DNA from: a virus
Length of the DNA: 22,507 nt
Direction: 5' to 3' (one strand)
Virus record (IMG/VR): IMGVR_UViG_3300049855_000028
Location: 1-22,507 of that record
Shown: positions 1 through 22,210 of the stretch, one piece after another
Layout: each line of letters starts with the position of its first letter
Numbering within the stretch: the first letter of the stretch is position 1
The notes under the pieces: generated by a model
What the model was told of the DNA's origin: nothing
The model's database searches: none
What the model saw: the letters and a program-made list of their open reading frames with translations, nothing else
Translations under genes and position numbers: made by a program

Positions 1-996
1 GAGGGTAGCCTGCGTGGTGAGGGTGTGGAGTATGTACTCAGCGAACCTTGCCGTGAGGATGAAGTAGGCCCCCTCCTTGAGCTTCTCTGGGGTACCTTCG
101 AGGCGAACAAGACTGTCCTCCGTCCCAGCAACCGCTGCTCTGTGCATGTCCACATCAATGTGCAGCGGCTGACTGAGTTGCAAGTGTTCAACCTCATCGT
201 CCTCTACCTCATCGCCGAGGATGCCCTTGTCCGCTGGTGCGGGGAGGGGAGGGTTGGTAACTTGTTCTGCCTCCGAGCACGGGACGCTGAGTTCGTGATC
301 GACAGTCTTGAGGAGACTAGCGTGGATGGTATGTGGGCACGTCTCCACACCAATGACCTGCGCTACGCAGCATTGAACTGCAAGGCCCTTGGGGATTTCG
401 GTAGCTTGGAGTTCCGATCCCTCCGGGGGACTGATGAGCCCGGTATCATCAAGACGTGGGTGTCCATACTGATGCGGTTAAGGGAGGCAGCGTTGCGGTA
501 TGACTTCCCCAACAATATCCTCGACGGCTTCTCCGCTGGTGGTGAGGAAGCCTTCTGTCGTGAGACATTTGGGGATCACTTCGAGGAGTTGTTCGACTAC
601 CCCGAGTGGAGGGAGGATGTCCGCAGTGGGATGCGTCGCTGTCAGTGCATCGCCTACTCAGGAAACTGGTCGGCTCTCTCCGACAACGAACCCGAGGTGA
701 AGAAGAAAAAGAAGCGGGTGTCTGCACCCCCCGAGTGGCAGAATATGAATCTCGGTGAGCAACGTATCGGTGCTGCTATCCCTATGCCCCCCGGCGCTGA
801 TGGGAGGGTCGAGTGGAATCTGGGTCAGTGGGTAGATGAGTTTGTCAATGGAAGAATGGCTGATCCCGGTATAGACCAGAGAGCTTTTCTGGAAGCCAAG
901 CGTCTCCTGAAGATAAAGCAGGAGCAGGTGTTGATGCAGCGTATGGCCCGTGAAGTTGAGGCCCGACGCAACGAGGCTAACCCCTTCGATGAATAA
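1..996 (+). CDS. Amidoligase-like (COOH-NH2 ligase) phage enzyme, 5' end cut by window
   Basis: The reading frame is open from base 1 and ends at TAA 994-996, giving 331 visible codons. A GTG at 25 could serve as a start. However, the residues just before it (GSLRGEG, running into VEYVLSEP) look like the N-terminal substrate/ATP-binding segment of the family, so the true start is probably upstream of the window. Family marks seen are RCSVHVHINV (a His-x-His strand, about residues 45-55 of the visible part) and the later Leu-Glu-Phe-Arg-Ser-Leu-Arg-Gly segment. The C-terminal third has a run of five lysines followed by a charged helical tail. Phage amidoligases are thought to form amide or peptide bonds using ATP, and often sit beside a glutamine amidotransferase and a gamma-glutamyl cyclotransferase. 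That module, if present, would lie to the left. The natural substrate is unknown. The family call is by motif recognition and fairly secure; the function is inferred. Confidence 0.75.
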   Translation, partial: EGSLRGEGVEYVLSEPCREDEVGPLLELLWGTFEANKTVLRPSNRCSVHVHINVQRLTELQVFNLIVLYLIAEDALVRWCGEGRVGNLFCLRARDAEFVIDSLEETSVDGMWARLHTNDLRYAALNCKALGDFGSLEFRSLRGTDEPGIIKTWVSILMRLREAALRYDFPNNILDGFSAGGEEAFCRETFGDHFEELFDYPEWREDVRSGMRRCQCIAYSGNWSALSDNEPEVKKKKKRVSAPPEWQNMNLGEQRIGAAIPMPPGADGRVEWNLGQWVDEFVNGRMADPGIDQRAFLEAKRLLKIKQEQVLMQRMAREVEARRNEANPFDE

Positions 997-1001
997 AGTT
1001 T

Positions 1002-1025
1002 GGGGGCTTGTCCCCCCTTTCTTTT
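1002..1025 (+). terminator. Rho-independent terminator after the amidoligase gene
   Basis: Five Gs (1002-1006) and five Cs (1012-1016) pair across the loop CTTGT. They are followed by a T-rich tail, TTT-C-TTTT (1018-1025). It begins six bases after the amidoligase stop codon, and it separates that gene from the primase-helicase operon. The stem is short but all G-C. Function is inferred from structure only. Confidence 0.65.
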
Positions 1026-1067
1026 AAAAAGAGTATACTATTATGAATACAACATAAGGAGGGAGGT
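1026..1067 (+). promoter_or_regulatory. AT-rich leader with -10-like box and strong ribosome binding site before primase-helicase
   Basis: This short leader follows the terminator directly. It contains TATACT (1034-1039), a good match to a bacterial -10 element, but there is no recognisable -35 box at the right distance, where the terminator C-run lies. A very strong Shine-Dalgarno sequence, AAGGAGGGAGG (1056-1066), sits just before ATG 1068 and fixes the start. The promoter is tentative; it could be read by the host sigma factor or by a phage-specific factor. The ribosome binding site is secure. Confidence 0.3.
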
Positions 1068-2726
1068 ATGGCATGTGTTGAGAAGGTTCATTGCGGTAAG
1101 TGTGGGGGCAACAACCTCCAGATCTTTTACGATGGTGAGAAGTACAGCGGTTTCTGCTTCAACCCCCGCTGTCTCCAGTATGTGGCTGACCCCTATAAAG
1201 ATCAACCTGCCGACTTCGTCCCACCCAAGAAGAAGCTGGGTAAGTCAAAGGAGGACAGGGAGAGGGACATCCGTGAGATACAGGGTGAGTGGGGTGTCTG
1301 TGATATACCCGACCGTTTCCTTAAGAAGGAATACCTAGACTACTTCGGTGTCAAGGTGGGTGTCAGTGAGGTAGATGGTGTCACCCCAGCGGTAGCTGCC
1401 TTCCCTGTCAAACGGGGGGGTGAGTTGGTAAGCTACAAGCTACGCCTCCTTGATGAGAAAAGGATGTGGAGTCTGGGAGACTCAGGTCAAGCAGACTTGT
1501 TTGGTTGGGAGCAGGCACTGGAGTCGGGTGCCCCTCGGTTGATCATAACAGAGGGGGAGTTCGATGCCGTTGCCCTGTTCCAAGTCCTGAAGGAGGGGAA
1601 CAAGGACCCAAGGTACGAGCACTTCAACCCCGCTGTTGTCAGCCTAGCCAATGGCTCTGTCACTGCTGCTCATGGTATCAAGCAACACTTGCAGAAGATC
1701 AAGGCCCACTTCAAGGATGTAGTGCTAGCCTTTGACATGGATGAGGCAGGAGAGAAGGCCGCCGAAGAAGCGACCAAGCTCTTGCCAACAGCGATGAGGG
1801 CACAGCTCCCAGCACATGACCCCAACGATTGCCTCAAGGAGGGCAAGTCTAAGGCATTGAAGAATGCTGTGCTGTTCAAGGCAGAGACAAGGAAGAACTC
1901 GCGTCTGGTCTACGGTAGCAGCCTTGCTGGGGTTGCAAGGAAGGAGGCAGAGTGGGGTAGGACTTTCCCTTGGAAGCGCCTGACGGAGCTTACACGAGGT
2001 GAGAGGTGGGGTGAGACATATTACTGGGGGGCTGGTGTTAAGATGGGTAAGTCAGAGCTGCTCAATGCGCTGGCTGCACACAACATTATCAACAACAGGG
2101 AGAAGGTCTTTGTCGCTAAGCCAGAGGAGGCTAATGCCAAGACCTACAAGATGTTGGTTGGTAAGGCAGCGAACAGGATATTCCATGACCCAACCGTGCC
2201 GTTCGACTATGATGCGTTCGATGAACATGAACCCACCATAAGCGACAACGTGGTGATGCTGGACTTGTATCAGCACCTAACATGGGACCATGTCAGGGAG
2301 GATATTATCCACGCCGCAGGTGAAGGGTACCGCACTGTGTACCTAGACCCTATCACAAACTTCACCAATCAGATGTCAAGTGGTGACGCTAACGAGGCAC
2401 TTGTGGGGATCGCAGCGGAGGCGGCAGCTATGGCACATGACCACAAGCTGACCATCCACTTCTTCTGCCACCTGAATGCACCACCTCGTGGGTCAACACC
2501 GCATGAATTGGGAGGGCAGATATTCTCCAACCAGTTCGCTGGTAGCAGGGCGATGATGCGTTCATGTAACTATATGTTCGGGCTAGAGGGAAACAAGGAC
2601 CCCCATCTGGGCCTGAATGAAAGGAACTGTAGGCAGATCGTCCTCTTGGAGGACAGGGAGTTTGGTCAGGTGGGGTACGTACCCCTGTACTGGGACAACA
2701 AGACAGGTGCTTTCAATGAGAGGTAG
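1068..2726 (+). CDS. DNA primase-helicase (T7 gp4-like)
   Basis: A 552-residue replicative enzyme, close to T7 gp4 in length, that would synthesise RNA primers and unwind DNA at the fork as a hexamer. Domains in order: an N-terminal zinc ribbon with Cys9, Cys12, Cys30 and Cys35; a TOPRIM primase core with IITEGEFDAVAL (about residues 160-171, catalytic Glu) and the DMDEAG acidic motif (about residue 224); and a RecA-like helicase with a Walker A loop, GAGVKMGKS (about residues 321-329). The loop is closer to the DnaB form than to T7's. A Walker B strand, TVYLDP, lies near residue 426. The start is fixed by the strong ribosome binding site. It begins a tightly packed gene series that also carries the polymerase and exonuclease. 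A T7-type fused primase-helicase is the only reading I find reasonable. Confidence 0.95.
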   Translation: MACVEKVHCGKCGGNNLQIFYDGEKYSGFCFNPRCLQYVADPYKDQPADFVPPKKKLGKSKEDRERDIREIQGEWGVCDIPDRFLKKEYLDYFGVKVGVSEVDGVTPAVAAFPVKRGGELVSYKLRLLDEKRMWSLGDSGQADLFGWEQALESGAPRLIITEGEFDAVALFQVLKEGNKDPRYEHFNPAVVSLANGSVTAAHGIKQHLQKIKAHFKDVVLAFDMDEAGEKAAEEATKLLPTAMRAQLPAHDPNDCLKEGKSKALKNAVLFKAETRKNSRLVYGSSLAGVARKEAEWGRTFPWKRLTELTRGERWGETYYWGAGVKMGKSELLNALAAHNIINNREKVFVAKPEEANAKTYKMLVGKAANRIFHDPTVPFDYDAFDEHEPTISDNVVMLDLYQHLTWDHVREDIIHAAGEGYRTVYLDPITNFTNQMSSGDANEALVGIAAEAAAMAHDHKLTIHFFCHLNAPPRGSTPHELGGQIFSNQFAGSRAMMRSCNYMFGLEGNKDPHLGLNERNCRQIVLLEDREFGQVGYVPLYWDNKTGAFNER

Positions 2727-2728
2727 TT

Positions 2729-3229
2729 ATGAGTGTTAAGCGATACGATTTTTTTCCTGAGTATGGTTACGGGGAGATTATCCCAAACGACATAGATGGT
2801 GATTTTGTAAAATACAAAGACTACGCGGAGTTGGAGCAGAACTTCTTTAGCCGAGATATGGATTGTGCTGCTAAAGATATTCTCATCGCACAGCAGGCAG
2901 CGGAGATAGATGCGCTCAAGGAATCACGCAAGATAGAAATGAAAGCCTATGACGAGCTACAAGATGCCTTTATTGACCTGAACCTTGTTTGTGACGAGCT
3001 GCGCCAACAGGTGGCGACCCAATCAACGGCATTGCGGAAAATCGCAGCATGGGGTGGTTGGGGAGTGTTCCCTGAGAAATACAATCCAGAGTGGTGTGCG
3101 ATGGCAATCACGACAGCCAGAGAATTGTCGCCCATCGACCCGCCAGCAGCAGATAAGCAGCCTTGGATTAATGACGATGGGTCGCCTCAGTTTTATCGCC
3201 CGCCAGCAGCAGGGGAGGAGAAGGTATGA
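2729..3229 (+). CDS. Hypothetical protein with central coiled coil
   Basis: A 166-residue protein of unknown function. The N-terminus is aromatic and acidic (ending in DFVKYKDYAELEQ). A long helical, Glu/Lys/Gln-rich segment at about residues 45-105 is likely a coiled coil, followed by ALRKIAAWGG and a Pro-rich C-terminus in which Pro-Pro-Ala-Ala occurs twice. Small phage accessory proteins with a 'KYSDY' start, a coiled coil and a final ALRKI-like segment are common in tailed phages, but I know no function. It starts two bases after the primase-helicase stop with a GAGAGG ribosome binding site, and its end overlaps the next gene by ATGA. Its first bases are richer in A+T than the primase gene, consistent with an exchangeable cassette. 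Confidence 0.8.
   Translation: MSVKRYDFFPEYGYGEIIPNDIDGDFVKYKDYAELEQNFFSRDMDCAAKDILIAQQAAEIDALKESRKIEMKAYDELQDAFIDLNLVCDELRQQVATQSTALRKIAAWGGWGVFPEKYNPEWCAMAITTARELSPIDPPAADKQPWINDDGSPQFYRPPAAGEEKV
3134..3212 (+). repeat. In-frame direct repeat CCCGCCAGCAGCAG, two copies
   Basis: A perfect 14-base repeat lies at 3139-3152 and 3199-3212, exactly 60 bases apart. It is preceded by a near-identical ATCG in both copies (3134-3137 and 3195-3198). Both copies encode Pro-Pro-Ala-Ala in the 166-aa unknown protein. It probably arose by local duplication or slippage in its C-terminal tail. Confidence 0.8.
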
Positions 3230-3405
3230 GTTTAAGTCAACTACTTACGGAACCTTTAGAGGAAGAGATAGTCAAACTCAGAGCGGCCATTAAGGATGCT
3301 CTGGAGCACTGGGACCCTATACCCGAGGGAGAATATTACCACACTCCGGGGGAGTGTGCAGCCAAAGCACGTCTGGAGAAGCTAGCGGAGAGTTGGGATG
3401 AGTAA
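3226..3405 (+). CDS. Small hypothetical protein, 59 aa
   Basis: ATG 3226 overlaps the previous stop as ATGA, and TAA 3403-3405 ends it. The protein begins MSLSQLLTEPLEEEIVKLR and ends ARLEKLAESWDE. It is acidic and mostly predicted helical, with a short middle loop carrying Pro, Tyr, His and Cys. The upstream ribosome binding site GGGGAGGAGAAGG lies in the preceding gene. Its position, exactly filling the space between two neighbours with overlaps on both sides, is the main evidence that it is real. No function recognised. Confidence 0.75.
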   Translation: MSLSQLLTEPLEEEIVKLRAAIKDALEHWDPIPEGEYYHTPGECAAKARLEKLAESWDE

Positions 3406-3691
3406 CGAACTGAAAGATTGGTTGTGGGATAATGAGGAGGAGAAACGCCGAACAGGACTGAGGGCCTTCACGGATTATCCTTTTACCTCCCTCGGGGATA
3501 CTGTTGGGGAACTAGCACCGATCCGAGAGTGTATCGTCTTAGACTGGGATGGTGATAAATACTGCCGCATCCTTATAGAAGGCTTAACTGAGTACGTTAA
3601 GTTGGGTTACCTGTACCAGCAAGAAGGGCGGCTGGGGGAAGTGCGTTGTATTGATAGAAGTGAAATACCGGGGGAAGTATGTACGCAATAG
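3398..3691 (+). CDS. Small hypothetical protein, 97 aa
   Basis: A 97-residue protein, start ATG 3398, overlapping the upstream stop by 8 nt. The N-terminal part is charged (MSNELKDWLWDNEEEKRR). The middle, IRECIVLDWDGDKYCRILIEG, reads like beta-strands around an acidic turn, and may resemble a small SH3-like or beta-barrel fold; this is only an impression. It overlaps the sigma-like gene by 13 nt, so it is probably translated in the same coupled chain. No function recognised. It belongs to the small-gene cassette inserted between primase-helicase and sigma factor. Confidence 0.75.
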   Translation: MSNELKDWLWDNEEEKRRTGLRAFTDYPFTSLGDTVGELAPIRECIVLDWDGDKYCRILIEGLTEYVKLGYLYQQEGRLGEVRCIDRSEIPGEVCTQ

Positions 3692-4176
3692 AGCAGTTAG
3701 CATTCCTTGCCCAGAACAACTTCAACAAGTTGGTTAGTAAACTGGCAAGGCGTGTCCCTAACGTGGCTGATGCAGAGGATATTGTGCAGACAGCACTTGA
3801 ACGTGGGGTACGGTACGCCAACACTTACGATGAGAACCAAGCGTTTGATGCATGGTTCGGCAGGCTTATCCAGAATGCGTGGAAGGATTGGCTGAAGGAG
3901 AATCGTAGGGCTGGTATGACCGATGAAGTCAACGAGAAGAATGGGGGTGAGGTGCCTTGTACCAAGGAGGCTGCTGAGTTAGCAGAGCTACTGAAGCAGG
4001 AGATACTTTCACTACCGGATTCCTTCAAGAAGGATGTGATGTACCGAAGGTTCCTGATAGGGCTGCCCGTAGATGAGATAGCATTCGTCTTGGGTGTGGA
4101 TCGTGAGCGTGTGAAGAAGAGTATCCTCCGGTGGAGGGCACTGGTGTTTGACAAATATGGAGTACAATTACAATGA
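3679..4176 (+). CDS. ECF-type sigma-70 family RNA polymerase sigma factor
   Basis: A 165-residue protein with the two-domain layout of ECF (group 4) sigma factors. Region 2 is visible at about residues 12-78, with the characteristic VADAEDIVQTAL motif (core RNA polymerase binding) and then FDAWFGRLIQNAWKDWLKENRR. A variable acidic linker follows, then region 4 at about residues 112-160: LPDSFKKDVMYRRFLIG, PVDEIAFVLGVDRERVKKSI, a helix-turn-helix for -35 recognition. No region 1 or 3 is present. It would redirect host RNA polymerase to a subset of promoters, possibly the middle or late genes, including the minus-strand virion operon. The gene overlaps its upstream neighbour by 13 nt and the next gene by ATGA. 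The family assignment is good; the regulatory role is inference. A degenerate phage regulator of the same fold is the alternative. Confidence 0.8.
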   Translation: MYAIEQLAFLAQNNFNKLVSKLARRVPNVADAEDIVQTALERGVRYANTYDENQAFDAWFGRLIQNAWKDWLKENRRAGMTDEVNEKNGGEVPCTKEAAELAELLKQEILSLPDSFKKDVMYRRFLIGLPVDEIAFVLGVDRERVKKSILRWRALVFDKYGVQLQ

Positions 4177-4388
4177 TACTACTGAAAGAGAAAGATCTTG
4201 AGGACATAGCAGGTATACTCCGGCACGAGGGTGCTGAGAATCTTGCTACAGCAGTGGAGTCTCTCCTCCTCAGAGCGAGGAACAAGGAGCAGCAGGTGAA
4301 CCACCAAGAGGGTGCGTCTAAGGTGCTGCCTCCCATACAAGGTTCACCGAACCAAGGGTGCAATGCATCAAGGTACCCTTACAACTGA
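4173..4388 (+). CDS. Small hypothetical protein, 71 aa
   Basis: Start ATG 4173 overlaps the sigma factor stop by ATGA, and it ends 18 bases before the polymerase start. The first half is a charged amphipathic helix pair (MILLKEKDLEDIAGILRHEG, then AVESLLLRARNKEQQ). The second half is polar and low in structure, with several Asn, Gln and Pro, and ends SRYPYN. The coupling to the sigma gene could mean a functional partner such as an anti-sigma or co-factor, but nothing in the sequence proves it. The weak, disordered C-terminus leaves some doubt about the full length. Confidence 0.6.
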   Translation: MILLKEKDLEDIAGILRHEGAENLATAVESLLLRARNKEQQVNHQEGASKVLPPIQGSPNQGCNASRYPYN

Positions 4389-4406
4389 GTTAAGGGGCGC
4401 AAGCAC

Positions 4407-6338
4407 ATGAAAATATGTGTAGCCGATTTAGAAGCCAACGGATTCTTGGAGGATGCTGATCGTGTATGGTGCGGTGTGTTCATTGATGAAAAAACTGAGG
4501 AGGTCACTGAGTTCAGGCCCGACCAAATGCAAGACATGCTCCGATTCATGGAGACAATTGATGTTCTTGTCATCCACAACGGAACCGGGTACGATCATCC
4601 CCTTCTGCGAAAGCTGTATGGATTTGATTTCAAAGGGATACGGATTGACACCCTCATCATGTCTCGTTTACAAAGACCCGACAGGCAACTCCCATTTAAC
4701 TGTAAGGACAGATCAGCAGGTCCTCATAGTATTGAGGCTTGGGCCTACAGGGTTGGAAGGCGTAAGCCTGAGCACGCTGACTGGACCCAGTTCTCAGAGG
4801 AGATGCTAACAAGGTGCAGAGAGGATACATTTATCCTCCTCGACACATACAGAGAGTTAAAGAAGGAGGGAGGTAAGGACTGGAGGAGGGCTCATCCCCT
4901 AACCCACAAGTTGTTTGAGATACTTCACGAGCAAGAGCAGTATGGGTGGTTGGTTGATCAGGACTGGATGGCGTACTGTATCCAGACTCTCACTCGATGG
5001 ATGGATAGGATTGACAAAGTAGTTGTCCCCTCCCTCCCCCCAGTTGTAGTAGTAGATGAGGATAAGAAGCATGGCGAATACAGTTACGTTAAGAAGCCTT
5101 TTCTCAAATCGGGGAAGCATTCGCAAGCCGTTTGTGATTGGTGGGAGGATACTATTGGTGCTAGTGGTGGTGTTGGTTGTCCTGTTGCCGGTCCTTTTAG
5201 TCGGGTCAGCTTTAGGCCTGTCAATCTAAACAGCAACGCAGAGGTCAAGGACTGGCTGCTGCGTGAGGGGTGGATACCCGAGGCATGGAACTACAAGAAG
5301 GTTGATGGTAAGCTTGTCAAGGATGCTGATGGCAACTTGATACCAACATCACCCAAGCTGAACGAGGATGATCCTTTCCTCGGGGTGCAGGGTAAGGTGG
5401 GGATGTTGCTCGTTAAGCGAGTACAGTGTAGGCACAGGAGGTCACAGGTTGAGGGTTGGTTTAAGAACCTACGGCCTGATGGGCGCTTAGGTCAGGGCAT
5501 CGGAGGTATCTGCACCACGGCCCGATTAAGGCACAAGGTGATAGTCAACGTACCTAATGATGACAGCTTCTTTGGTAAGTGGATGAGGAAGTGTTTCATC
5601 TGCAAGCCCGGCTACAAGCTGGTGGGTATTGACTCGGCTGGTTGTCAGAACAGGATGTTGGCTGCACGAGTGGGCAACCCTGCTTTCACTAAGACGCTGA
5701 TCGAGGGTGACAAGAAGAAAGGTACGTCCATACATCAGGTGAACCAGAAGGCTATAGCTGAGATGGGTGTTGAAGTCAACTACCATCAGGCTAAGAATCT
5801 TAACTACGCCTTCATGTTTGGAGCAAGGGACCCCAAGCTAGGGGCCATCATAGGTAAGAGTAAGGAGGTTGGCGCTGTAGTAAGGGCTGCCCTGCTAGGT
5901 GTAGCACCGGGATTTGAACAGCTTGTTGCTAGCCTCACTGAGGAATGGCAGAGCAACGCTAAGTCACGGCTGAACAGGTGGGGCAAGAAGGAATACTATG
6001 ACGGTTGGGTAACAGGACTGGATGGTAGGCCGATCTACATAGAGACAGAGCACCAGATTCTGGTGTACGTTCTCCAATCAGATGAGGCCATCATGATGCA
6101 GACCGCACTTGTACTGCTGAAAGAGTGGCTTGATGATCTGGGTTGGACATTCGGGGAGGAGTACGGCTGGGTAGCTAATGTGCATGACGAGTTTCAAGCA
6201 GAAGTAAGAGAAGATTGTGTTGAGAAGTATTGCGAGCTAGGTGAGTTAGCTATCACCGAAGCAGCAGTACGGTTAGGAATCCAATGCCCACATGAAGGTG
6301 AGGCAAAGGTTGGTTGTAATTGGTACGAAACACATTGA
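4407..6338 (+). CDS. DNA polymerase, family A, with 3'-5' exonuclease (T7 gp5-like)
   Basis: A 643-residue replicative polymerase, somewhat shorter than T7 gp5. The exonuclease domain has Exo I DLE (Asp7, Glu9), Exo II IHNGTGYD (Asn58, Asp63) and Exo III ending at Asp140. The usual Exo III Tyr four residues earlier is Arg136. Polymerase motif A is GIDSAGCQNR (Asp409), motif B YHQAKNLNYAFMFG (Lys463, Tyr467) and motif C VHDEFQ (His593, Asp594, Glu595). Compared with T7, Glu480 is Gln414, Arg518 is Tyr459 and Tyr530 is Phe471, while Tyr526 is kept as Tyr467. The downstream blocks GLDGRPIYI and LQSDEAI align with T7 without gaps, so these changes are not alignment slips. Start ATG 4407 follows the ribosome binding site TAAGGGG. 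It would copy the phage genome together with the primase-helicase at 1068. Confidence 0.95.
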   Translation: MKICVADLEANGFLEDADRVWCGVFIDEKTEEVTEFRPDQMQDMLRFMETIDVLVIHNGTGYDHPLLRKLYGFDFKGIRIDTLIMSRLQRPDRQLPFNCKDRSAGPHSIEAWAYRVGRRKPEHADWTQFSEEMLTRCREDTFILLDTYRELKKEGGKDWRRAHPLTHKLFEILHEQEQYGWLVDQDWMAYCIQTLTRWMDRIDKVVVPSLPPVVVVDEDKKHGEYSYVKKPFLKSGKHSQAVCDWWEDTIGASGGVGCPVAGPFSRVSFRPVNLNSNAEVKDWLLREGWIPEAWNYKKVDGKLVKDADGNLIPTSPKLNEDDPFLGVQGKVGMLLVKRVQCRHRRSQVEGWFKNLRPDGRLGQGIGGICTTARLRHKVIVNVPNDDSFFGKWMRKCFICKPGYKLVGIDSAGCQNRMLAARVGNPAFTKTLIEGDKKKGTSIHQVNQKAIAEMGVEVNYHQAKNLNYAFMFGARDPKLGAIIGKSKEVGAVVRAALLGVAPGFEQLVASLTEEWQSNAKSRLNRWGKKEYYDGWVTGLDGRPIYIETEHQILVYVLQSDEAIMMQTALVLLKEWLDDLGWTFGEEYGWVANVHDEFQAEVREDCVEKYCELGELAITEAAVRLGIQCPHEGEAKVGCNWYETH

Positions 6339-6348
6339 GGAATACATT

Positions 6349-7029
6349 ATGAGTTTTAAAGCACCTAAAGGTAATGGTGGTGGGGATCGCGTAGCACAAG
6401 AAGTTATACCTGTGGGCAACTACCCAGCACGACTGGTCCAGCTAGTTGATCTGGGACTCCAGAAGCAGAACCCCTATCAGGGAAAGGAGAAGGCACCTGT
6501 CCACATGATCCGTTGTGTGTATGAACTACCCACAGAGTTCTGTGTAGATGAGGATGGTAACGAGGACAAGGAGAAGCCTCGCTGGATTGGTGAGGAGTTC
6601 CCCTTCTACAGCATTGACGCGGAGCGTTCCAAGGCGGCCCAACGGTACAAGGCGCTGGACCCCAAGATCGAGCACGATGGTGACTGGGAACCGCTGGTTG
6701 GTGGTGCGTGTACGCTGACTGTGGTACACAACCCCGACAAGAAGGACCCCAAGAAGGTGTACGCCAACATCGGTAGCACAGCGCCTCCGATGAAAGGCTT
6801 CGAGGTGCCTCCTCTGGTTAATCCGCCCACCATGTGGACGCTGGACGATCCAGACATGGAAGTGTTCGCTAAGTTCCCTGAGTTTATGCAGGAGAAGATC
6901 AAGAGTAACTTGAACTTCAAAGGCTCACTGTTGGAAGCGAAGCTGACAGGTAAGGAGTACGTACCAGCAGCAGATGCACCGGCTGAGGAAGGTGCTGAAG
7001 CAGATGTGGAGGAGAACCCGTATGGGTAG
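6349..7029 (+). CDS. Putative single-stranded DNA-binding protein
   Basis: A 226-residue protein. ATG 6349 is chosen over an in-frame ATG at 6292 because it lies after the polymerase stop and follows a GAGGA ribosome binding site. It starts MSFKAPKGNGGGDRV, has VGNYPARLVQLVDLG and mixed beta-type strands in the centre, then NPPTMWTLDDPDMEVF and IKSNLNFKGSLL. The last 25 residues are strongly acidic (GAEADVEENPYG), like the C-terminal tails by which phage SSBs contact polymerase and helicase. Proteins of this layout are found next to family A polymerases in many podoviruses and are usually labelled SSB or unknown. The call rests on the acidic tail, the position after the polymerase, and recall of similar proteins. 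An exonuclease or recombination partner is an alternative. Confidence 0.6.
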   Translation: MSFKAPKGNGGGDRVAQEVIPVGNYPARLVQLVDLGLQKQNPYQGKEKAPVHMIRCVYELPTEFCVDEDGNEDKEKPRWIGEEFPFYSIDAERSKAAQRYKALDPKIEHDGDWEPLVGGACTLTVVHNPDKKDPKKVYANIGSTAPPMKGFEVPPLVNPPTMWTLDDPDMEVFAKFPEFMQEKIKSNLNFKGSLLEAKLTGKEYVPAADAPAEEGAEADVEENPYG

Positions 7030-7372
7030 GTGTATCGTGGCTGGTGGTAGGGACTTCGCCGATCCAGCCCTTCTCGAAGAAGCACTAAGTAACTTCGATA
7101 AGTTAGTTGGTATCACCACGCTTGTTTCTGGAAATGCCCGTGGTGCCGACCGACTCGGGGAGGTATGGGCTCTTGACAATGAGGTGGATATTAAACGCTT
7201 CGTTCCTAACTGGGACCTAGGGAAACACGCAGGTTTTCTCAGGAACTCCCAGATGGCCGAGTATGCGGACTACCTCGTTGCCTTCTGGGATGGTAAGAGT
7301 AAGGGGACCAAGCACATGATAGACACAGCCCTTGAGAAAGGGCTACTCGTTAAGGTGGTGCGTTATGGGTAA
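7022..7372 (+). CDS. SLOG / DUF2493 (YspA-like) family protein
   Basis: A 116-residue protein. ATG 7022 overlaps the previous stop by 8 nt and follows GGAGGAGA. Family marks in order: RCIVAGGRDFAD (first strand and nucleotide-type loop, residues 3-14), TLVSGNARGADRLGE, VPNWDLGKHAGFLRNSQMA, and AFWDGKSKGTKHMIDTA. This is the YAcAr/DUF2493 branch of the SLOG (SMF/DprA-LOG) Rossmann-like superfamily, whose members bind nucleotides or nucleotide-derived ligands. The exact reaction is not known for phage members. It sits between the SSB-like protein and the exonuclease in the replication arm. A role in nucleotide metabolism or in binding a host signalling nucleotide is possible, but only inferred. 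The family call is secure. Confidence 0.85.
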   Translation: MGRCIVAGGRDFADPALLEEALSNFDKLVGITTLVSGNARGADRLGEVWALDNEVDIKRFVPNWDLGKHAGFLRNSQMAEYADYLVAFWDGKSKGTKHMIDTALEKGLLVKVVRYG

Positions 7373-7502
7373 GGGTAGCAAACGTAGGCCCGGCAAAGGT
7401 TACGAGGAGAACTATGACAAGATCTTCAAGAAGCCTAAGGACAAACCAAAGGAGTTGACCAAGGATGAAAGCACTGATAGACGCAGACGTACTGCTGTAT
7501 GA
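7365..7502 (+). CDS. Tiny basic phage protein, 45 aa (MGKGSK type)
   Basis: ATG 7365 overlaps the SLOG gene stop by 8 nt; TGA 7500-7502 lies 38 nt inside the exonuclease gene in another frame. The protein starts MGKGSKRRPGKGYEENYDK and goes on IFKKPKDKPKEL to an Arg-rich end. Short phage proteins beginning MGKGS-x-RP and carrying a 'W/YDKIF' segment occur in many unrelated tailed phages, so I take it as real. It has about one third basic residues and probably binds nucleic acid or another protein. No proven function. Confidence 0.7.
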   Translation: MGKGSKRRPGKGYEENYDKIFKKPKDKPKELTKDESTDRRRRTAV

Positions 7503-8313
7503 ATGCTCCAGTGTAGCTGAACCAAAGGAAGCCAAGGGGACGGAGGAGGCTCAGCCTCTGAAGTCCTTTGACTTTGTCAAGGAGGTTTTTGATGGTAGAG
7601 TCAGAGACATCCTTGAGGCTACCAAGAGCGACGAGTACACGCTGTACATCACAGGTAAGGGCAACTTCAGGTTCGACATAGCGGTGTCTCAACCCTACAA
7701 GGGTAAGAGGGATGAGAAGAAACCATACCACTATGACAACCTTAAGGCCTACATCCTCTCTCATGAGAATGCTGTTCTTGTGGAGGGGATGGAGGCTGAC
7801 GATGCAATGGCTATAGCTCAGGAGTTGAAGTGGTCCTGTGGTGAGGGGGATGTGTATGACCTAGACCCCCGCTTCTGTACCACAGTCATTTGCACAAGGG
7901 ATAAAGACTTACGTATCGTCCCCGGCTGGCACTATGGGTGGGAGTGTGGACGGCAGCCTGAGTTCAGGATGCAGTTCATAGACAAACTCGGCTGGCTCAC
8001 CTTATCTGGTGACAGGAAGAGTGTCAAAGGAGGTGGCCTGAAGTTCTTCTGGTCTCAGATGTTGACAGGGGATAAGACAGACAACATACCCGGTCTTCAT
8101 GGTACGGGGCCTGTGGCTGCATACGAGGCGCTACACCGCTGCACAACAGAGGGTGAGTTGTACCTCACAGTGAAGGCCATGTATGAGATGGAGCACCCAG
8201 ACGACTGGCGGGAGTACATGCTGGAGCAAGGTCGCTTGTTGTGGATGGTGCAGTGCTTGGACGACGAGGGTAAACCCGTCATGTGGGAGATACCAGATGC
8301 CTTTGATGGATAA
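7465..8313 (+). CDS. 5'-3' exonuclease (FEN-like, T7 gp6-type role)
   Basis: A 282-residue metal-dependent nuclease that would remove RNA primers and degrade host DNA during phage replication. The N-terminus, KALIDADVLLYECS, gives the first catalytic aspartates (Asp6, Asp8). VEGMEADDAMAIAQ near residue 110 provides the next acidic cluster, and CTRDKDLRIVPG (about 150) a further one. MLTGDKTDNIPGLHGTG (about 200-216) is the helix-hairpin DNA-binding element with two metal-binding Asp residues. An inserted segment before it (SGDRKSVKGGG) is lysine/glycine rich. The start follows AAAGGAG and overlaps the 45-aa gene. It is placed as expected in a T7-like set, after polymerase and SSB and before the HNH enzyme. 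Confidence 0.9.
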   Translation: MKALIDADVLLYECSSVAEPKEAKGTEEAQPLKSFDFVKEVFDGRVRDILEATKSDEYTLYITGKGNFRFDIAVSQPYKGKRDEKKPYHYDNLKAYILSHENAVLVEGMEADDAMAIAQELKWSCGEGDVYDLDPRFCTTVICTRDKDLRIVPGWHYGWECGRQPEFRMQFIDKLGWLTLSGDRKSVKGGGLKFFWSQMLTGDKTDNIPGLHGTGPVAAYEALHRCTTEGELYLTVKAMYEMEHPDDWREYMLEQGRLLWMVQCLDDEGKPVMWEIPDAFDG

Positions 8314-8731
8314 GAAGTATAACAATGGGGCTTGGACTCAGGGTAGGTACGATGCATTCATCAAGGGTGTCATCCGTGATGGATTGAAACGGTGGGGCCC
8401 CAAGCATGACTGCATTAAGCAGGCTCGAACCAAACGAGGTTACTACAGGTGTGGGGAATGTAAGGAGGAGGTCCCTGCCACGATACTGCGAGAGCTGAAG
8501 ACCAAGCCGGGTACGATGAAGAGGGTGCGTAACATCTACGCAGACCATATCATTCCAATTGTAGACCCAGCAGTGGGGAGGAGGAGTTGGGACGAAGTCA
8601 TAGAGAGGGCCTTTGTGGATACCACTGGGTACCAAGCCCTGTGCTATGACTGCCATGAGGTCAAGACGCAAGCGGAGAAGTTAGTCTCTCGTGAGCGTAT
8701 CAAGAAAGACTTGGAGTTGCCAGATGAATAA
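8306..8731 (+). CDS. HNH endonuclease
   Basis: A 141-residue protein. ATG 8306 overlaps the exonuclease stop by 8 nt; an in-frame upstream ATG (8183) is rejected because it lies deep inside the exonuclease. Marks: a zinc knuckle YYRCGECKEEV (about residues 43-53), the catalytic strand IYADHIIPIVDP, and YQALCYDCHEVKTQAEK with the second Cys pair and final His. This is the zinc-stabilised HNH (beta-beta-alpha-metal) type. In this position it may serve in recombination or DNA processing, as endonuclease VII or T7 gp3 do elsewhere. It could also be a free-standing homing-type nuclease. Its tight overlaps with both neighbours favour a settled role over a recent insertion. Confidence 0.85.
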   Translation: MDKKYNNGAWTQGRYDAFIKGVIRDGLKRWGPKHDCIKQARTKRGYYRCGECKEEVPATILRELKTKPGTMKRVRNIYADHIIPIVDPAVGRRSWDEVIERAFVDTTGYQALCYDCHEVKTQAEKLVSRERIKKDLELPDE

Positions 8732-8981
8732 GGATAACTATATGGGTTACAATCTGTTTTTGGACGTAGAAGATAAAGAGAGTCGTGATAGAAACCGTGG
8801 CCAAGTGATGCTCAACATATTCGAGGATCACTGTCAGGACCATAGGATCGGTCCTGCTGGTATGGTCGCCATCTTGGGGTACTTCAAGAGTCTCCCTGCT
8901 GATGAGCGTATCGCTGCCCTCGAATACTTCAGAGCAATGACAACAGCGGCGGGGTATAATGGACCCGTATTGGTGAACTGA
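8724..8981 (+). CDS. Conserved-looking hypothetical phage protein, 85 aa
   Basis: ATG 8724 overlaps the HNH stop by 8 nt, the same junction type seen at four other places. An alternative start at ATG 8742 has a closer AAGGA ribosome binding site and would give 79 residues. The body reads YNLFLDVEDKESRDRNRG, then VMLNIFEDHCQDH, GPAGMVAILGYFKSLPADER and a short helical end. It is likely a compact helical protein. I have the impression that similar proteins occur beside replication genes in other podoviruses, but no function is known to me. Confidence 0.75.
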   Translation: MNKDNYMGYNLFLDVEDKESRDRNRGQVMLNIFEDHCQDHRIGPAGMVAILGYFKSLPADERIAALEYFRAMTTAAGYNGPVLVN

Positions 8982-8982
8982 G

Positions 8983-9258
8983 ATGAGGAATTACATTAAT
9001 CAGAAGTTGGTAGTGCATCGTGGGGTAGGCGACAAGGAAGTGGCAGAGTTAAACTGTCTTCATTATCTGGCCGATGCAATCTTAATACGGGTGCAGAACA
9101 CACTGTCTTGTAACGGGGATCGTTTACATGAAGGAGTGGCAGAGGCATTCGAGGCTATGAAGTTTGTCGAGTACGAGATGCAGAAGCGGTGGGGCTTCGC
9201 CCAGTCTGAGCGGGAACATACCCACAAACACCGCCTCAAGAACATTATCGGAGAGTAA
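8983..9258 (+). CDS. Hypothetical protein, 91 aa
   Basis: ATG 8983 is one base after the preceding stop. The upstream ribosome binding site is weak (ACTGAG), so translation may depend on coupling. Predicted mostly helical: KEVAELNCLHYLADAILIRV, then GVAEAFEAMKFVEYEMQKRW, and a His/Arg-rich end (EREHTHKHRLKNIIGE). No motif recognised. It stops two bases before the metallophosphoesterase start. Confidence 0.75.
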   Translation: MRNYINQKLVVHRGVGDKEVAELNCLHYLADAILIRVQNTLSCNGDRLHEGVAEAFEAMKFVEYEMQKRWGFAQSEREHTHKHRLKNIIGE

Positions 9259-9260
9259 TC

Positions 9261-9938
9261 ATGGCTACAGTCGGTATAATTGGTGATACCCACATACCCT
9301 ATGAACTTGAAGGTTATCTGGAGTTCTGCCAGAAGATGTTCAAGGCTTGGCGGGTGGACAGGGTGGTACACATAGGAGACTTAGTGGACCATCATGCCCT
9401 TAGCTTCCATGACAATGAGCCTATGCTCAAGAACGCAGCAGGTGAGTTGGTAGATGCACGGGATAAGCTACAGGCTTGGTACAAGGCGTTCCCTAAGCTA
9501 CAGGTCTGTGCTGGAAATCATGATCTGATCCCTCAGAGGCAGCTCCACAAGATCGGCATGGAAGCCGAAGTGTGGATGCGCCCTCTCAAAGAGGTGTACG
9601 GTATGCCCAAGGGGTGGGAGATAGTGGATACTGTCGTGATTGATGGTGTCCTCTACCACCACGGGTACACAGCCAACGGTGTGAATGGTTTCCGTAATGA
9701 TGCGGTACGCAGGATGTGCCGCACTGTGACTGGTCACTCACATGGTAATGCAGGGATTGCTGCCTCCGCATCTGAGCACCGTCTGGTGTGGGGTATGGGT
9801 GTGGGGTGTGGTGTTGATGTAACCAGCATGGCTATGGTGTATGGGAAACACTTCTTACAGAAGCCCATCATCGCTTGTGGTATTGTACAGGAGGGCTCTC
9901 CTTTCATAGAGTACATGCAACTGGGAGAGAAACCATGA
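9261..9938 (+). CDS. Calcineurin-like metallophosphoesterase
   Basis: A 225-residue phosphoesterase with the complete metal-binding motif series: GDTH (Asp9, His11), HIGDLVDHH (about residue 37), AGNHDL (about residue 79), YHHGYT (about residue 134) and TGHSHG (about residue 156). This five-block pattern defines the two-metal calcineurin-like fold. Phage members are variously nucleases, phosphatases or cyclic-nucleotide phosphodiesterases, and the sequence alone does not choose between them. It lies between small unknown genes and the DUF3310/ribonucleotide reductase pair, which hints at nucleotide metabolism. ATG 9261 follows GGAGAG and is two bases after the previous stop. It overlaps the next gene by ATGA. 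Confidence 0.9.
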   Translation: MATVGIIGDTHIPYELEGYLEFCQKMFKAWRVDRVVHIGDLVDHHALSFHDNEPMLKNAAGELVDARDKLQAWYKAFPKLQVCAGNHDLIPQRQLHKIGMEAEVWMRPLKEVYGMPKGWEIVDTVVIDGVLYHHGYTANGVNGFRNDAVRRMCRTVTGHSHGNAGIAASASEHRLVWGMGVGCGVDVTSMAMVYGKHFLQKPIIACGIVQEGSPFIEYMQLGEKP

Positions 9939-10144
9939 GCGCATTGGATGTTCAACCGGGCGGCGATCACTACAAGAACCATGCTATCCAACCGATAGAG
10001 TACGTGGTTAAGAACCAACTCGGTTTCTGTGAGGGTAACGTCATCAAGTACGTCACCCGTCACAAACTTAAGAACGGTAAAGAAGATATACTAAAAGCAA
10101 TACACTACTTACAACTATTACTGGAGTTACAATATGGAGAATAA
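9935..10144 (+). CDS. DUF3310 domain protein (T7 gp1.7-related)
   Basis: A 69-residue protein, start ATG 9935 overlapping the upstream stop as ATGA; the longer in-frame form from 9875 would run inside the phosphoesterase. It contains QPGGDHYKNHAIQPIEYVV, then FCEGNVIKYVTRHKLKNGKE and DILKAIHYLQLLLE. These are the marks of DUF3310, which also occurs in the T7 gp1.7 nucleotide kinase. Here the domain stands alone and no separate kinase motif is visible. A role in nucleotide metabolism fits the ribonucleotide reductase just downstream, but this is inference. Confidence 0.85.
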   Translation: MSALDVQPGGDHYKNHAIQPIEYVVKNQLGFCEGNVIKYVTRHKLKNGKEDILKAIHYLQLLLELQYGE

Positions 10145-10373
10145 CACAACAGAAGTCGCCGAGGTTATGCCATCCTATTATGAGATAGACGTACAGTACG
10201 TTGGCGGTAATTTTCAATACACCAATGTGGTCGCCTTCCAAATAGAAGATAGGCTGCTACAGTTGTCGGACGGTACAGCCTCATTCATCATCCCAATAAA
10301 CGAGAACGTACTGTCTCTCAGGATCGAACCCATCTTCAAGTCAGAGGAGGAAACCTATGTCACGATTCCGTAA
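10134..10373 (+). CDS. Hypothetical protein, 79 aa
   Basis: ATG 10134 lies within the end of DUF3310 (11-nt overlap) after the ribosome binding site GGAG. The stop lies 17 nt inside the ribonucleotide reductase gene. The sequence is mostly beta-type: YYEIDVQYVGGNFQYTNVVA, RLLQLSDGTASFIIPINENV and LSLRIEPIF. It could be a small beta-sandwich or barrel. No family recognised. It is probably translated in a coupled way with both neighbours. Confidence 0.7.
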   Translation: MENNTTEVAEVMPSYYEIDVQYVGGNFQYTNVVAFQIEDRLLQLSDGTASFIIPINENVLSLRIEPIFKSEEETYVTIP

Positions 10374-11994
10374 CTCTTTTGGAGAAACAATCTTCCGCAG
10401 TAAGTATGCCCTGTCGCCCACCCAGACATGGGCTGAGAAGGCGTATGATCTGGTGCACTCAGTCACAGAGAACCTGATGACGAGGGAGCAGCAGGATGAG
10501 CTTGAGGATTACATAACACGGTTTGCCTTCATGCCGGGTGGTAGATACATCTACTACGCCGGTAGACAAGCCAGCTTCTACAACAACTGTTACCTGTTAA
10601 AGGGTGAGGAGGATACACGTGAGGAATGGGGAAGGCTCCTTAACAGGGCTAGTGATTGCCTCATGTCTGGTGGGGGTATTGGGAGCGACTACAGTGTATT
10701 TCGCCCAAGGGGAGCACCCCTCGGTAGAACAGGTGGCACAGCCTCCGGCCCCATACCTCTTATGCATTCCGTCAACGAAGTCGGACGTAATGTTATGCAA
10801 GGAGGTAGTCGTCGAAGTGCAATCTGGGCATCCCTTAACTGGCAACACAAGGACGTCCCCGAATTCTTACTGATGAAGAACTGGAAGGAGCAGTACATCT
10901 CCAAAGGAGTAACTGTGCATGATGCCAAGCAGTTCAACTTCAACTATCCAGCCCCTATGGACCAGACTAATATCAGTCTGAATTACGATAACAAGTTCCT
11001 TGACCACATCAGTCAGGGACACCTGCCACCAACGTTCATACAGAACTGCAGGCAGGCGATGGAGACTGGAGAACCCGGCTTCGCCTTTAACTTTGGAGAT
11101 AAAGAGAATGAAACCCTTAGAAACGCTTGTACAGAAGTTACATCATCTGACGATAGCGATGTATGCAATCTGGGGAGTGTTAACCTTGGGGCTATTAACA
11201 CGCTTAGTGAGTTTAGGGCAGTCGTTCGACTGGCTGCTGGTTTCCTCGTCTGTGGTACTATTACGGCTGACCTACCTTACGATAAGGTATACGCTGTTAG
11301 GAAGAAAAACCGAAGGCTAGGTTTGGGTTTGATGGGGATACATGAGTGGCTGCTCAAGCGTGGGTATCCCTACGGGATGAACCCTGAGCTGCGGCAGTGG
11401 ATGGAAGTATATCGGGAGGAGAGTGAACGTGCTGCTAATTCCCTGTGTGATCGCCTTAGTATCAGCCGTCCTGTTGCTTACAGGGCTATTGCACCTACTG
11501 GAACAATCGGCATCCTTGCGGGAACGACAACTGGCATTGAGCCTTTGTATGCTGTCGCTTATAAGCGTCGTTACCTCGTTGGCGGTGATCAGTGGCGTTA
11601 TGAATACGTTGTAGACAGTACAGCAGAGGAGTTGATACAACGGTATGGTTGTAATCCGGATGATATCGAAACAAGCCTATCTTTGGTGGGTAATTTTGAG
11701 CGTAGAATTGAATTCCAAGCCGACATACAGGACTATGTTGACATGGCTATCTCATCAACGATCAATCTTCCAGCATGGGGTTCGGAGCATAACAACGAGG
11801 ATAGGGTCATGGACTTCGCTAATGTACTGGCGAAGTATGCACCTAGGTTACGAGGCTTTACTGCGTACCCAGACAATGCAAGAGGCGGTCAGCCGCTTAC
11901 TTTGTGTAGCTACGCAGAAGCTAAGAAGCATAAGGGAGTATCTTTTGAAGAGAACTCCGAAGTGATATGTGGAAGTGGGGTGTGTGGCATCTAG
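10357..11994 (+). CDS. nrdJ: Ribonucleotide reductase, class II (adenosylcobalamin-dependent)
   Basis: A 545-residue enzyme converting ribonucleotides to deoxyribonucleotides for phage DNA synthesis. The first redox cysteine is in YNNCYLL (Cys78). The radical-site motif is NACTEV (Asn256, Cys258, Glu260), and the partner cysteine is in DVCNLGSVNLG (Cys270). IAPTGTIGILAG (about residues 378-389) is the phosphate-binding loop. The C-terminus carries CGSGVC (Cys538, Cys543) for re-reduction. No small radical subunit (NrdB) and no glycyl-radical motif are seen nearby, so class II, using vitamin B12, is the best reading. The start follows a strong GAGGAGG site inside the preceding gene. It is the last plus-strand gene, and its stop codon lies in a hairpin at the convergent junction. 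Confidence 0.9.
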   Translation: MSRFRNSFGETIFRSKYALSPTQTWAEKAYDLVHSVTENLMTREQQDELEDYITRFAFMPGGRYIYYAGRQASFYNNCYLLKGEEDTREEWGRLLNRASDCLMSGGGIGSDYSVFRPRGAPLGRTGGTASGPIPLMHSVNEVGRNVMQGGSRRSAIWASLNWQHKDVPEFLLMKNWKEQYISKGVTVHDAKQFNFNYPAPMDQTNISLNYDNKFLDHISQGHLPPTFIQNCRQAMETGEPGFAFNFGDKENETLRNACTEVTSSDDSDVCNLGSVNLGAINTLSEFRAVVRLAAGFLVCGTITADLPYDKVYAVRKKNRRLGLGLMGIHEWLLKRGYPYGMNPELRQWMEVYREESERAANSLCDRLSISRPVAYRAIAPTGTIGILAGTTTGIEPLYAVAYKRRYLVGGDQWRYEYVVDSTAEELIQRYGCNPDDIETSLSLVGNFERRIEFQADIQDYVDMAISSTINLPAWGSEHNNEDRVMDFANVLAKYAPRLRGFTAYPDNARGGQPLTLCSYAEAKKHKGVSFEENSEVICGSGVCGI

Positions 11995-12003
11995 CCACAC
12001 CCC
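11977..12003. other. Strong hairpin covering the ribonucleotide reductase stop codon
   Basis: GGGG-TG-TGTGGC (11977-11988) pairs with GCCACACCCC (11994-12003), with a two-base bulge and the loop ATCTA. The TAG stop (11992-11994) lies in the loop and first stem base. Neither strand has a T-run after it, so by itself it is not a standard intrinsic terminator. It may stabilise mRNA ends or add to termination between the two convergent operons. Confidence 0.55.
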
Positions 12004-12011
12004 TCACCCTA

Positions 12012-12332
12012 CTACTCAGGCTCATCCCATTGATGGGCCTTTTTTTCGTCCCTCATTTGATGGCGCAGGAGGATGCTCAGTATGCGGTCAAGATCACTCT
12101 TGATCTCAATATGAGATTCCTTCAGCGGGGCTACGGCATCTAAGATAAGTTGCCTCACCTTCTGCTCCTCAATAGTAGATTTCTCTACTGCCTGCACTCT
12201 CTTATCCAAAGCATCAATACGCTCAGCCGACTTCGTGTATACAACCCTGATCAACCAACCTATCAGGGCAGCAAACACTCCCGCTGCCCAAGTAAATAAC
12301 TCATCGGGAAACCCCTCTGTTACGATCTTCAT
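12012..12332 (-). CDS. Small membrane protein with coiled-coil tail (holin- or spanin-like candidate)
   Basis: A 106-residue protein, the last gene of the minus-strand operon. One hydrophobic segment, LFTWAAGVFAALIGWLIRVV (about residues 12-31), is followed by an Ala/Glu/Lys-rich coiled coil to about residue 95 (RIDALDKRVQAVEKS and so on) and an acidic end. A single N-terminal membrane anchor with a coiled-coil domain would fit an inner-membrane spanin, a holin-type or a Mu gp25-like (DUF2730-style) protein. I cannot choose between these. The gene ends with two TAG codons in tandem. Its start overlaps the stop of the large ejection protein by ATGA. No endolysin is visible next to it, which weakens a lysis assignment. 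Confidence 0.75.
   Translation of the reverse strand: MKIVTEGFPDELFTWAAGVFAALIGWLIRVVYTKSAERIDALDKRVQAVEKSTIEEQKVRQLILDAVAPLKESHIEIKSDLDRILSILLRHQMRDEKKAHQWDEPE
12019..12046 (+). terminator. Rho-independent terminator ending the plus-strand arm
   Basis: GGCTCATC (12019-12026) pairs with GATGGGCC (12032-12039) over eight base pairs including one G-T, with a five-base loop, followed by seven Ts (12040-12046). It is oriented to stop transcription arriving from the plus-strand replication genes. It lies inside the 3' end of the convergent minus-strand gene, so both coding and termination functions share these bases. Confidence 0.85.
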
Positions 12333-15300: not shown

Positions 15301-15520
15301 TAGCTGCCATAGCGGAGGGTGACATTGGATCTGGGTGTTCGTAAGGAGAGGTGGCCTCATACTCCCCCTCGACATAAGAGGGGGTGTCCCCAGCCTTGAT
15401 GTCAAGCTCAGCTAGCCTTCGCTTGGCTTGCTCTTGAGTCATGTTATACTCTGACTCTTTAGCATCCAATTCTGCCAGCCGAGCTTGGGCTTGTTTAAGC
15501 TGTTCTGGTGTCAATGCCAT
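12329..15520 (-). CDS. Large internal virion / DNA-ejection protein candidate, 1063 aa
   Basis: The largest protein in the window. The N-terminus carries three copies of RLAELD(A/I)K (residues 14-21, 35-42 and 74-81) in helical surroundings. Gly/Ala-rich hydrophobic stretches follow at about 162-206, 223-246, 268-293 and 305-322. The long middle part is charged and helical and contains RGENYLPFFLD, and another hydrophobic region lies near residue 700. Size, Gly/Ala-rich helices and place at the end of the tail operon match podovirus ejection proteins (T7 gp15/gp16 in role) that form a channel through the cell envelope. I see no lytic transglycosylase motif. The middle region may relate to the large 'polyvalent' phage proteins. 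The start follows AAGGATATT. The role is inferred from architecture and position. Confidence 0.75.
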   Translation of the reverse strand: MALTPEQLKQAQARLAELDAKESEYNMTQEQAKRRLAELDIKAGDTPSYVEGEYEATSPYEHPDPMSPSAMAARLAELDAKATAMPEEDVSFGDRLERGLYETGASIGSGIEAMGDITGSETLTQYGEEMRLGNKAKANEAAPEIQNLLSWGGLGDAITESLPSVGAMAAGAATGAAIGAPIPLPGTTALGGLIGLGLTSFGMNLGDIKQIEESLDPESKSNLASLGFAGLATAPDVLTGGMFSATGKVGKDILKQAVKDSFVKRMVKNTAVAVGGAGLSAASVLGGAHVSTQIGIDDERLDAYAENVAVSSLLGGALSLTATPSIYAARMAQQKLDIRDNETSPIKFDEEGKIYYQQPNAAARADTGVFSDAMGTIKFGRAVDQVNAIAKGNDTVRDITSDFDMNFVERGTRVGKHTVNTEAKMDKVDALEIGGHFDLKKMSDAGQRKVKEDVYNGVDTPQANKVRAMLRHIYDRATEAGIKLGDRGENYLPFFLDIKKLKANTEGFRTEMVEYLTPKHGVEEATRKVNTYIQESLADGGTRFGDEAKMSDNLKEAIEKAVFDGNVDALRKPLVNVKKKGSINKTNNLELHRALSAVPEEIMQKWSKDLPLSSILEQYAQVASERIAYAKRFGADNELLNERVRMAVLEGYEKGKPLSMEAIDKVYELANLQQRITSTKVTPESRQRTAAIKSALNTVLLPTALIPSLIEPLYIVPKTGAVSAGKGLFQALGVSGRKLARIFNENVPQSEREAVLASLDSSFTEAVGIQTARWGDDTITPSQFDSYFFTLNLLAPFTEFTKIWSQLAAVDSFAKEANIAIDVTKSASARRAAGMRLAEAGLDVAAHSEWVANGSKKTDPHYRNVRAAAISLAEDVVFEPNPTNKPMWSSNPGFLMQMFSHLKTFPLQFNNRIALPVLTKLSKATGRSVQDLAKTATMAATASLGYAMIDQLKSFVRTGSNEAYEEKSDGQKWMGIVSGMGSASMVIDPFNAASFGKSALDVVAGPGLSMVGTGVKNLGASIADILSGDKDPGEVVDELTKKSLHILPNIMGSREALSEVVGG

Positions 15521-15548
15521 CTGAAATATCCTTACGTTTGTTTAACCA

Positions 15549-17234: not shown

Positions 17235-17246
17235 AATTAATATCCT

Positions 17247-20416: not shown

Positions 20417-20425
20417 AAAAACTCC

Positions 20426-21571: not shown

Positions 21572-21572
21572 A

Positions 21573-22208: not shown

Positions 22209-22210
22209 AT

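Follow-up and report, generated by a model that had tools for sequence, protein, structure and literature searches.

A predicted ECF-type sigma factor in the replication arm of a mosaic phage genome

The stretch of DNA analyzed here (the window) comprises 22,507 nucleotides from a virus, positions 1 to 22,507 of IMG/VR record IMGVR_UViG_3300049855_000028. The record is a partial genome, and much of the genome lies outside it. Two oppositely transcribed arms meet within the window, with replication genes on the plus strand and virion genes on the minus strand. A terminator-like hairpin of 9 pairs with a T run is present on the plus strand at their meeting point (12018-12040). A sequence-only reading of this DNA had noticed an ECF-type sigma factor gene in the replication arm, a placement that agrees with the identities of the genes on either side. 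These encode a primase/helicase and a PolA-type DNA polymerase, and the interval between them is called the slot below. The main features are as follows.

1068-2726, plus strand: DNA primase/helicase, bounding the slot on the left (PHROG_239; about 51% identity to Zobellviridae phages)
3398-3691, plus strand: 97-aa open reading frame overlapping the sigma start (no family match)
3679-4176, plus strand: ECF-type sigma factor gene, 165 aa (PHROG_1740 and TIGR02937 matches; PDB sequence matches to SigW and RpoE)
3679-3915, plus strand: predicted sigma region 2 domain, residues 1-79 (Pfam Sigma70_r2; structural match to 4lup)
3916-3960, plus strand: predicted disordered linker, residues 80-94 (pLDDT < 50 at 79-81 and 83-94)
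3961-4173, plus strand: predicted sigma region 4 domain, residues 95-165 (model helices; match to 2h27)
4173-4388, plus strand: 71-aa open reading frame sharing 4 bases with the end of the sigma gene (unmatched in PHROGs and NCBIfam)
4407-6338, plus strand: PolA-type DNA polymerase, bounding the slot on the right (Pfam and PHROGs; up to 55% identity to Zobellviridae phages)
12012-22504, minus strand: virion arm, LUZ24-type (tblastn to Rembedalsseter and LUZ24)

No anti-sigma gene was recognized beside the sigma gene by searches with NCBIfam and PHROGs families, which a new or diverged anti-sigma factor would escape; the flanking 97-aa and 71-aa reading frames match no family in either collection. 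Farther along the replication arm, a gene for a SLOG-family (YspA-like) protein (6974-7372) begins within the last part of the gene before it. The PHROG of this protein bears the name GTP-binding domain, as does phiEco32 gp35, which adjoins the sigma factor of phiEco32.

The sigma gene begins with ATG, and the coordinates, strand, and reading frame assigned to it by the sequence-only reading are correct. Profile matches of its product are far above chance. The NCBIfam model for sigma70-ECF proteins (TIGR02937) scores 58.8 bits (E 5e-16; cut-off 42.9) over residues 15-153, a span that takes in both conserved regions, and PHROG_1740 (“RNA polymerase sigma factor”) matches with an E value of 5.1e-16. 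Thus, the similarity to sigma families on which the initial assignment depended is present. Pfam Sigma70_r2 reaches 40.5 bits (cut-off 24), and the segment ADAEDIVQTAL, residues 30-40, falls within this region. Two Pfam region 4 models score 18.2 and 14.7 bits, both below their cut-offs. Among the best 25 NCBIfam matches listed, no equivalog cut-off was reached. In a sequence search of solved structures, SigW and RpoE were the top relatives, and a 10-row profile retrieved 27 distinct sequences (E ≤ 0.01), almost all of them sigma factors.

An AlphaFold model of the protein (mean pLDDT 83.5, pTM 0.47) comprises four helices, a disordered stretch at residues 79-94, and four more helices (96-110, 115-127, 131-138, and 142-160) that correspond to region 4. 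For the first domain, the match is sigma-E region 2 with -10 DNA (4lup; Z 8.7, 2.5 Å over 80 residues), and for the second it is sigma-E region 4 on -35 DNA (2h27; Z 8.6, 3.0 Å over 68 residues). Chance alone can give helical proteins Z scores of about 8, but the sequence profiles agree with both matches. The best solved matches found by Foldseek are likewise ECF sigma factors. The fit holds only domain by domain, and superposition of the whole chain is poor (rmsd 12-19 Å), as expected if the model does not capture how the two domains are arranged relative to each other. The region 4 assignment, weak by Pfam, is therefore supported by the modeled helices and by the match to 2h27.

The protein has no room for regions 1.1 and 3 because it is just 165 aa long and only about 15 disordered residues separate its two domains. 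The earlier proposal that regions 2 and 4 alone are present is thus borne out by the model. Taken together, the profiles and the model indicate that the gene product is a sigma-70-family protein with the ECF plan. By homology, its region 2 domain would bind core RNA polymerase and recognize the -10 element, and its region 4 domain would recognize the -35 element.

Bacterial ECF sigma factors such as SigW, SigH, RpoE, and AlgU have the same two regions and the same domain folds. The window gene differs from them in having no recognized anti-sigma gene adjoining it, and in its position in an unrooted maximum-likelihood tree. In this tree of 21 phage and 36 bacterial ECF sigma factors (the latter chosen from at least 79 loci), all phage sequences, including that of the window, lie on one side of a branch supported at 97/93. 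Only this split is used here, given the weakly supported inner order and the long branches (L199, L200, L093, L003, and others). Among the matches listed, bacterial relatives are just 23-40% identical to the window protein over their best segments. Recent gain of the gene from a host was rejected as an explanation on the basis of this low identity and the grouping of the protein with phage sigma factors in the unrooted tree.

The relatives of this gene in other phages are numerous and highly divergent, at about 20-32% identity. With tblastn, they were found in 25 phage records, in 23 of which the identity is 24-32% over at least 80% of the query. Conserved residues in region 2 include E33, D34, Q37, W59, and N66. 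This divergence, together with the weak Pfam scores for region 4, would fit a protein that acts mainly as a competitor or inhibitor of the host sigma factor, occupying core polymerase and silencing host transcription while hardly activating promoters itself. We consider this very improbable. The fold of region 4 is kept in the model, the conserved residues of region 2 argue for retained function, and the two phage sigma factors of this kind that have been tested both direct transcription, according to the portions of the reports available to us (see below).

TIGR02937 matches occur at E ≤ 0.01 in 21 of 29 phage records, 12 of them above the cut-off, with the window record included. In 20 of these 21 (20/29 overall), the match sits in the slot between primase/helicase and polymerase. 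PQ867847 has its TIGR02937 match outside the slot, and its annotated slot sigma factor matches TIGR02985 instead (E 8.6e-7). The relatives found with tblastn in L002, L003, L004, L005, and L009 lie in this same slot. When reading frames from 34 sequences were searched with the family profile, 21 sigma genes were found, each upstream of a polymerase gene. A primase gene lies upstream of 18, and the other three (L093-L095) are identical sigma genes near contig ends.

Two phages of the Melvirus group seemingly carry two sigma-like genes each, one in the slot and one elsewhere: PQ867850 (L200; 18108-18494 and 7594-7875) and PQ867847 (L199; record positions 3981-4346). Slot reading frames in two further records (L016 3655-4173 and L017 9439-9957) resemble sigma factors only weakly (per-genome TIGR02937 E values of 2e-4 and 6e-4) and are perhaps strongly diverged sigma factors. 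The annotated sigma factor of RIO-1 was missed by the family profile, and TIGR02937 is weak there (E 0.0024).

A TIGR02937 match is absent from the remaining eight of the 29 records (LUZ24, Rembedalsseter, VpV262, SIO1, 172P1, G002, G009, and G014), among which the G records may be fragments. Because G002, G009, and 172P1 have no detectable sigma gene yet carry polymerases 46-49% identical to that of the window, replication arms of this type can do without the sigma gene, unless incomplete records or diverged copies hide it.

The initial view that compact ECF-type sigma factors have seldom been described in small podoviruses holds only in part. They are recurrent in the Zobellviridae, and many records of this family already annotate the slot gene as a sigma factor, with others calling it hypothetical. 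The slot sigma factors of PA11 (gp012), CW02 (gp21), CVT22, RIO-1 (RIO-1_19), and oyster-associated phages, which correspond to PHROG_1740, are homologous to the window protein and similar in size, and they occupy the same slot. The GenBank record of RIO-1 carries the note “a clear sigma factor in this position in related phages,” and a sigma transcription factor is listed in the portion of the CVT22 announcement available to us (PMC4505115).

In the literature, no paper on a Zobellviridae sigma factor was found by title among the matches listed, and a query combining Zobellviridae with sigma factor returned a paper on Xanthomonas jumbo phages. With the terms used, literature searches on CW02, RIO-1, and the oyster phages returned no paper, and the available part of PMC9348578 does not mention sigma factors. 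A search of viral contigs with the sigma sequence alone found nothing, and no near-match at the nucleotide level was found among the phages searched. The window gene is therefore ordinary of its kind, a Zobellviridae-type slot sigma factor whose annotation was already known and which is now found in one more phage. What is new here is its mosaic context.

The replication arm of the window (positions 1-12000) resembles that of the Zobellviridae, as the identities of its polymerase and primase listed above indicate. The virion arm has a different affiliation. Six of its proteins were tried with tblastn; five match Rembedalsseter, three match LUZ24, and none matches Zobellviridae loci. A 513-aa virion protein is 35-37% identical to those of the 20 best phages listed, which include Rembedalsseter, UFV-P2, NV1, and similar phages, and a 1063-aa virion protein is present in two of 18 records, both of them LUZ24-like. 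A search of viral contigs with the 513-aa protein found nothing.

Conversely, a search of the window with virion proteins of T5S1, KZY1, and PA11 (tail tube A and B, scaffold, capsid, portal, and terminase) gave no match below E 0.1. This comparison rests on tail-side genes, since the record does not extend to the genes for capsid, portal, and terminase in this phage. Judged on those tail-side genes, the phage would fall outside the Zobellviridae by the virion-protein criterion. The annotated genomes of that family that were compared have virion arms of the SIO1/PA11 type, whereas the window has one of the LUZ24 type. In turn, LUZ24 (Bruynoghevirus) shares a partly homologous and similarly arranged virion arm with the window but differs in its replication genes, with polymerase and primase only about 29-31% identical and with no sigma gene detectable.

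A chimeric assembly was rejected as the cause of this mosaic, given that an independent contig (L090) carries the same junction. On L090, the end of the polymerase gene and most of the gene for the 1063-aa virion protein (each 85% identical) are found together with a ribonucleotide reductase gene (98% identical); the contig starts inside the polymerase gene and so does not reach the sigma gene. The identity of the ribonucleotide reductase (window 10357-11994) exceeds the 76-85% seen for polymerase, exonuclease, and a virion protein, and other close copies (75-85%) reside in phages with distant polymerases. On both grounds, the ribonucleotide reductase gene may move by itself.

A third combination is represented by G005, which has a sigma gene in the slot and a different set of virion proteins as judged by PHROGs. 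Neither the 1063-aa nor the 513-aa protein was found in G005, nor was a Zobellviridae-type capsid. Our analysis of gene content thus depicts the window as a mosaic in which a replication arm like those of the Zobellviridae, carrying a sigma gene, is combined with a LUZ24-like virion arm. More generally, slot sigma genes keep to the replication arm and occur with various virion arms, of the SIO1/PA11 type, the LUZ24 type, or the G005 type.

Two podoviruses provide tested precedents for the function of such a protein. In the available portions of two papers (PMC4281155, PMC8948821), gp36 of phiEco32 is described as directing host RNA polymerase to middle and late promoters with the one-part motif tAATGTAtA, and gp47 of 7-11 as directing it to late promoters with the bipartite motif GTAAtg-(16)-aCTA. 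Both phages resemble the window in encoding an ECF-like sigma factor among replication-side genes, in having two oppositely transcribed arms, and in carrying homologs of the 513-aa virion protein (34% identity in 7-11 and 31% in phiEco32).

The sigma factors themselves are more distant. Similarity to 7-11 gp47 is detected by profile only: TIGR02937 scores 54.6 bits, above its cut-off, and the family profile matches positions 6-153 of 160 (E 1.8e-8), whereas direct BLASTP of the window protein against gp47 finds no similarity (E 76). Similarity to phiEco32 gp36 is marginal (23.1 bits with TIGR02937, below the cut-off; family profile at positions 5-47 only, E 0.007).

Phages of this kind also appear to lack an RNA polymerase of their own. 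No T7-type enzyme (PF00940) was found in 23 records, including the window, of which eight are IMG/VR records and possibly fragments; the polymerase of T7 itself was recovered as a positive control. In the portion of the Klyazma phage paper available to us (PMC9960094), the Zobellviridae are likewise said to have no RNA polymerase, and the sigma switching of phiEco32 is pointed to.

Given these precedents, we think it probable that the window protein redirects host RNA polymerase to phage genes. This is the likeliest function by homology and by analogy with the tested sigma factors, because both the family profile and TIGR02937 match 7-11 gp47 and because the 513-aa virion protein has homologs in both phages. 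Encoded among the replication genes, the sigma factor would bind host core RNA polymerase via region 2 and would recognize phage-specific promoters, presumably bipartite, through regions 2 and 4. Host polymerase would then leave early sigma-70 promoters in favor of phage genes of the middle and/or late class, and the sigma factor would stand in for the T7-type polymerase that these records seem to lack. A role at late promoters is plausible on the same analogy.

Several observations count against this redirection model. No promoter for the sigma factor was found, the published motifs of 7-11 and phiEco32 are not enriched in the window, and LUZ24, with a virion arm of the same type, has no detectable sigma gene. 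On the same side weigh the eight of 29 records without a TIGR02937 match, the lack of direct BLASTP similarity to gp47, the short profile match of gp36, and the poor whole-chain superposition on solved ECF sigma factors. Specifically, the 7-11 consensus has seven matches in the window versus 16.1 expected and the phiEco32 consensus has four versus 2.8 expected, with no enrichment in the replication arm either. The record ends inside the minus-strand virion operon, the start of which lies to the right of the record end, so that the promoter suggested by the sequence-only reading, driving this operon from the right of the window, would fall beyond the record. In the late-strand intergenic regions of the relatives PA11, CW02, and KZY1, no repeated exact k-mer (length 10-13) exceeded the largest shuffled value; the most marginal was one 11-mer in PA11 (1 versus a shuffled mean of 0.05 and a largest value of 1).

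Among relatives, the gap upstream of the scaffold gene is a weak lead to a promoter. It is A+T-rich in five of eight sigma-bearing records (121-163 bases, 12-29% G+C), as at 35805-35932 of L004 and likewise in L002, L003, L005, and L009, where it may hold a promoter. In VpV262, which has no detectable sigma gene, only 12 bases precede the scaffold gene. The gap is longer in G001 and G003 and holds tRNA genes there, for Thr and Gly in G001 (L177 19210-19367) and for Asn in G003 (L178 19842-19917). G008 bears a sigma gene without having such a gap, which counts against a tie between the two. K-mers common to the seven gaps (G008 left out) did not beat shuffled controls. All four sequences of the PA11 group share a conserved block that makes up the initial part of the gap. 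This block was not assigned as a phage sigma promoter, since no k-mer beats the shuffled controls and TATAAT lies inside it.

The constancy of the sigma gene in replication arms whose virion arms differ could also mean that the protein is a working sigma factor serving mainly the replication arm, namely its own operon and other middle genes, and that the host sigma-70 holoenzyme transcribes the LUZ24-type virion arm. LUZ24 itself fits this arrangement, since its late operon is preceded by predicted sigma-70-like promoters in the annotation and it has no detectable sigma gene. We nevertheless regard such a restricted role as unlikely. The sigma factor of 7-11 serves late genes and that of phiEco32 serves middle and late genes, as far as the available text of those reports goes, and both phages have a homolog of the 513-aa virion protein. 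In addition, the two published motifs are not enriched in the replication arm either.

With a replication arm and its sigma gene joined to differing virion arms, either the virion arms gain promoters for the sigma factor or the sigma factor serves mainly the replication arm. It can be proposed, as a tentative and rather doubtful idea, that the sigma gene is welded to the replication module as a portable transcription controller. The arm occurs with no fewer than three different virion arms, each of which must have gained promoters for the sigma factor unless its regulon is confined to the replication arm, and the window would represent a natural swap that put a LUZ24-type virion arm under the control of a phage ECF sigma factor.

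If this proposal is true, a virion arm that is apparently served by host sigma-70 in LUZ24 came under a phage ECF sigma factor. The timing of late gene expression in podoviruses that have no RNA polymerase of their own has been tested in few phages, such as phiEco32 and 7-11, to judge from the available parts of the reports. Because many Zobellviridae keep a sigma gene in one slot, the question could be addressed in cultured relatives such as PA11, CW02, and CVT22. The mosaic also offers a natural comparison, in which the same type of sigma factor and replication arm is combined with different virion arms, and this makes the window sigma factor somewhat more useful than another annotated copy would be.
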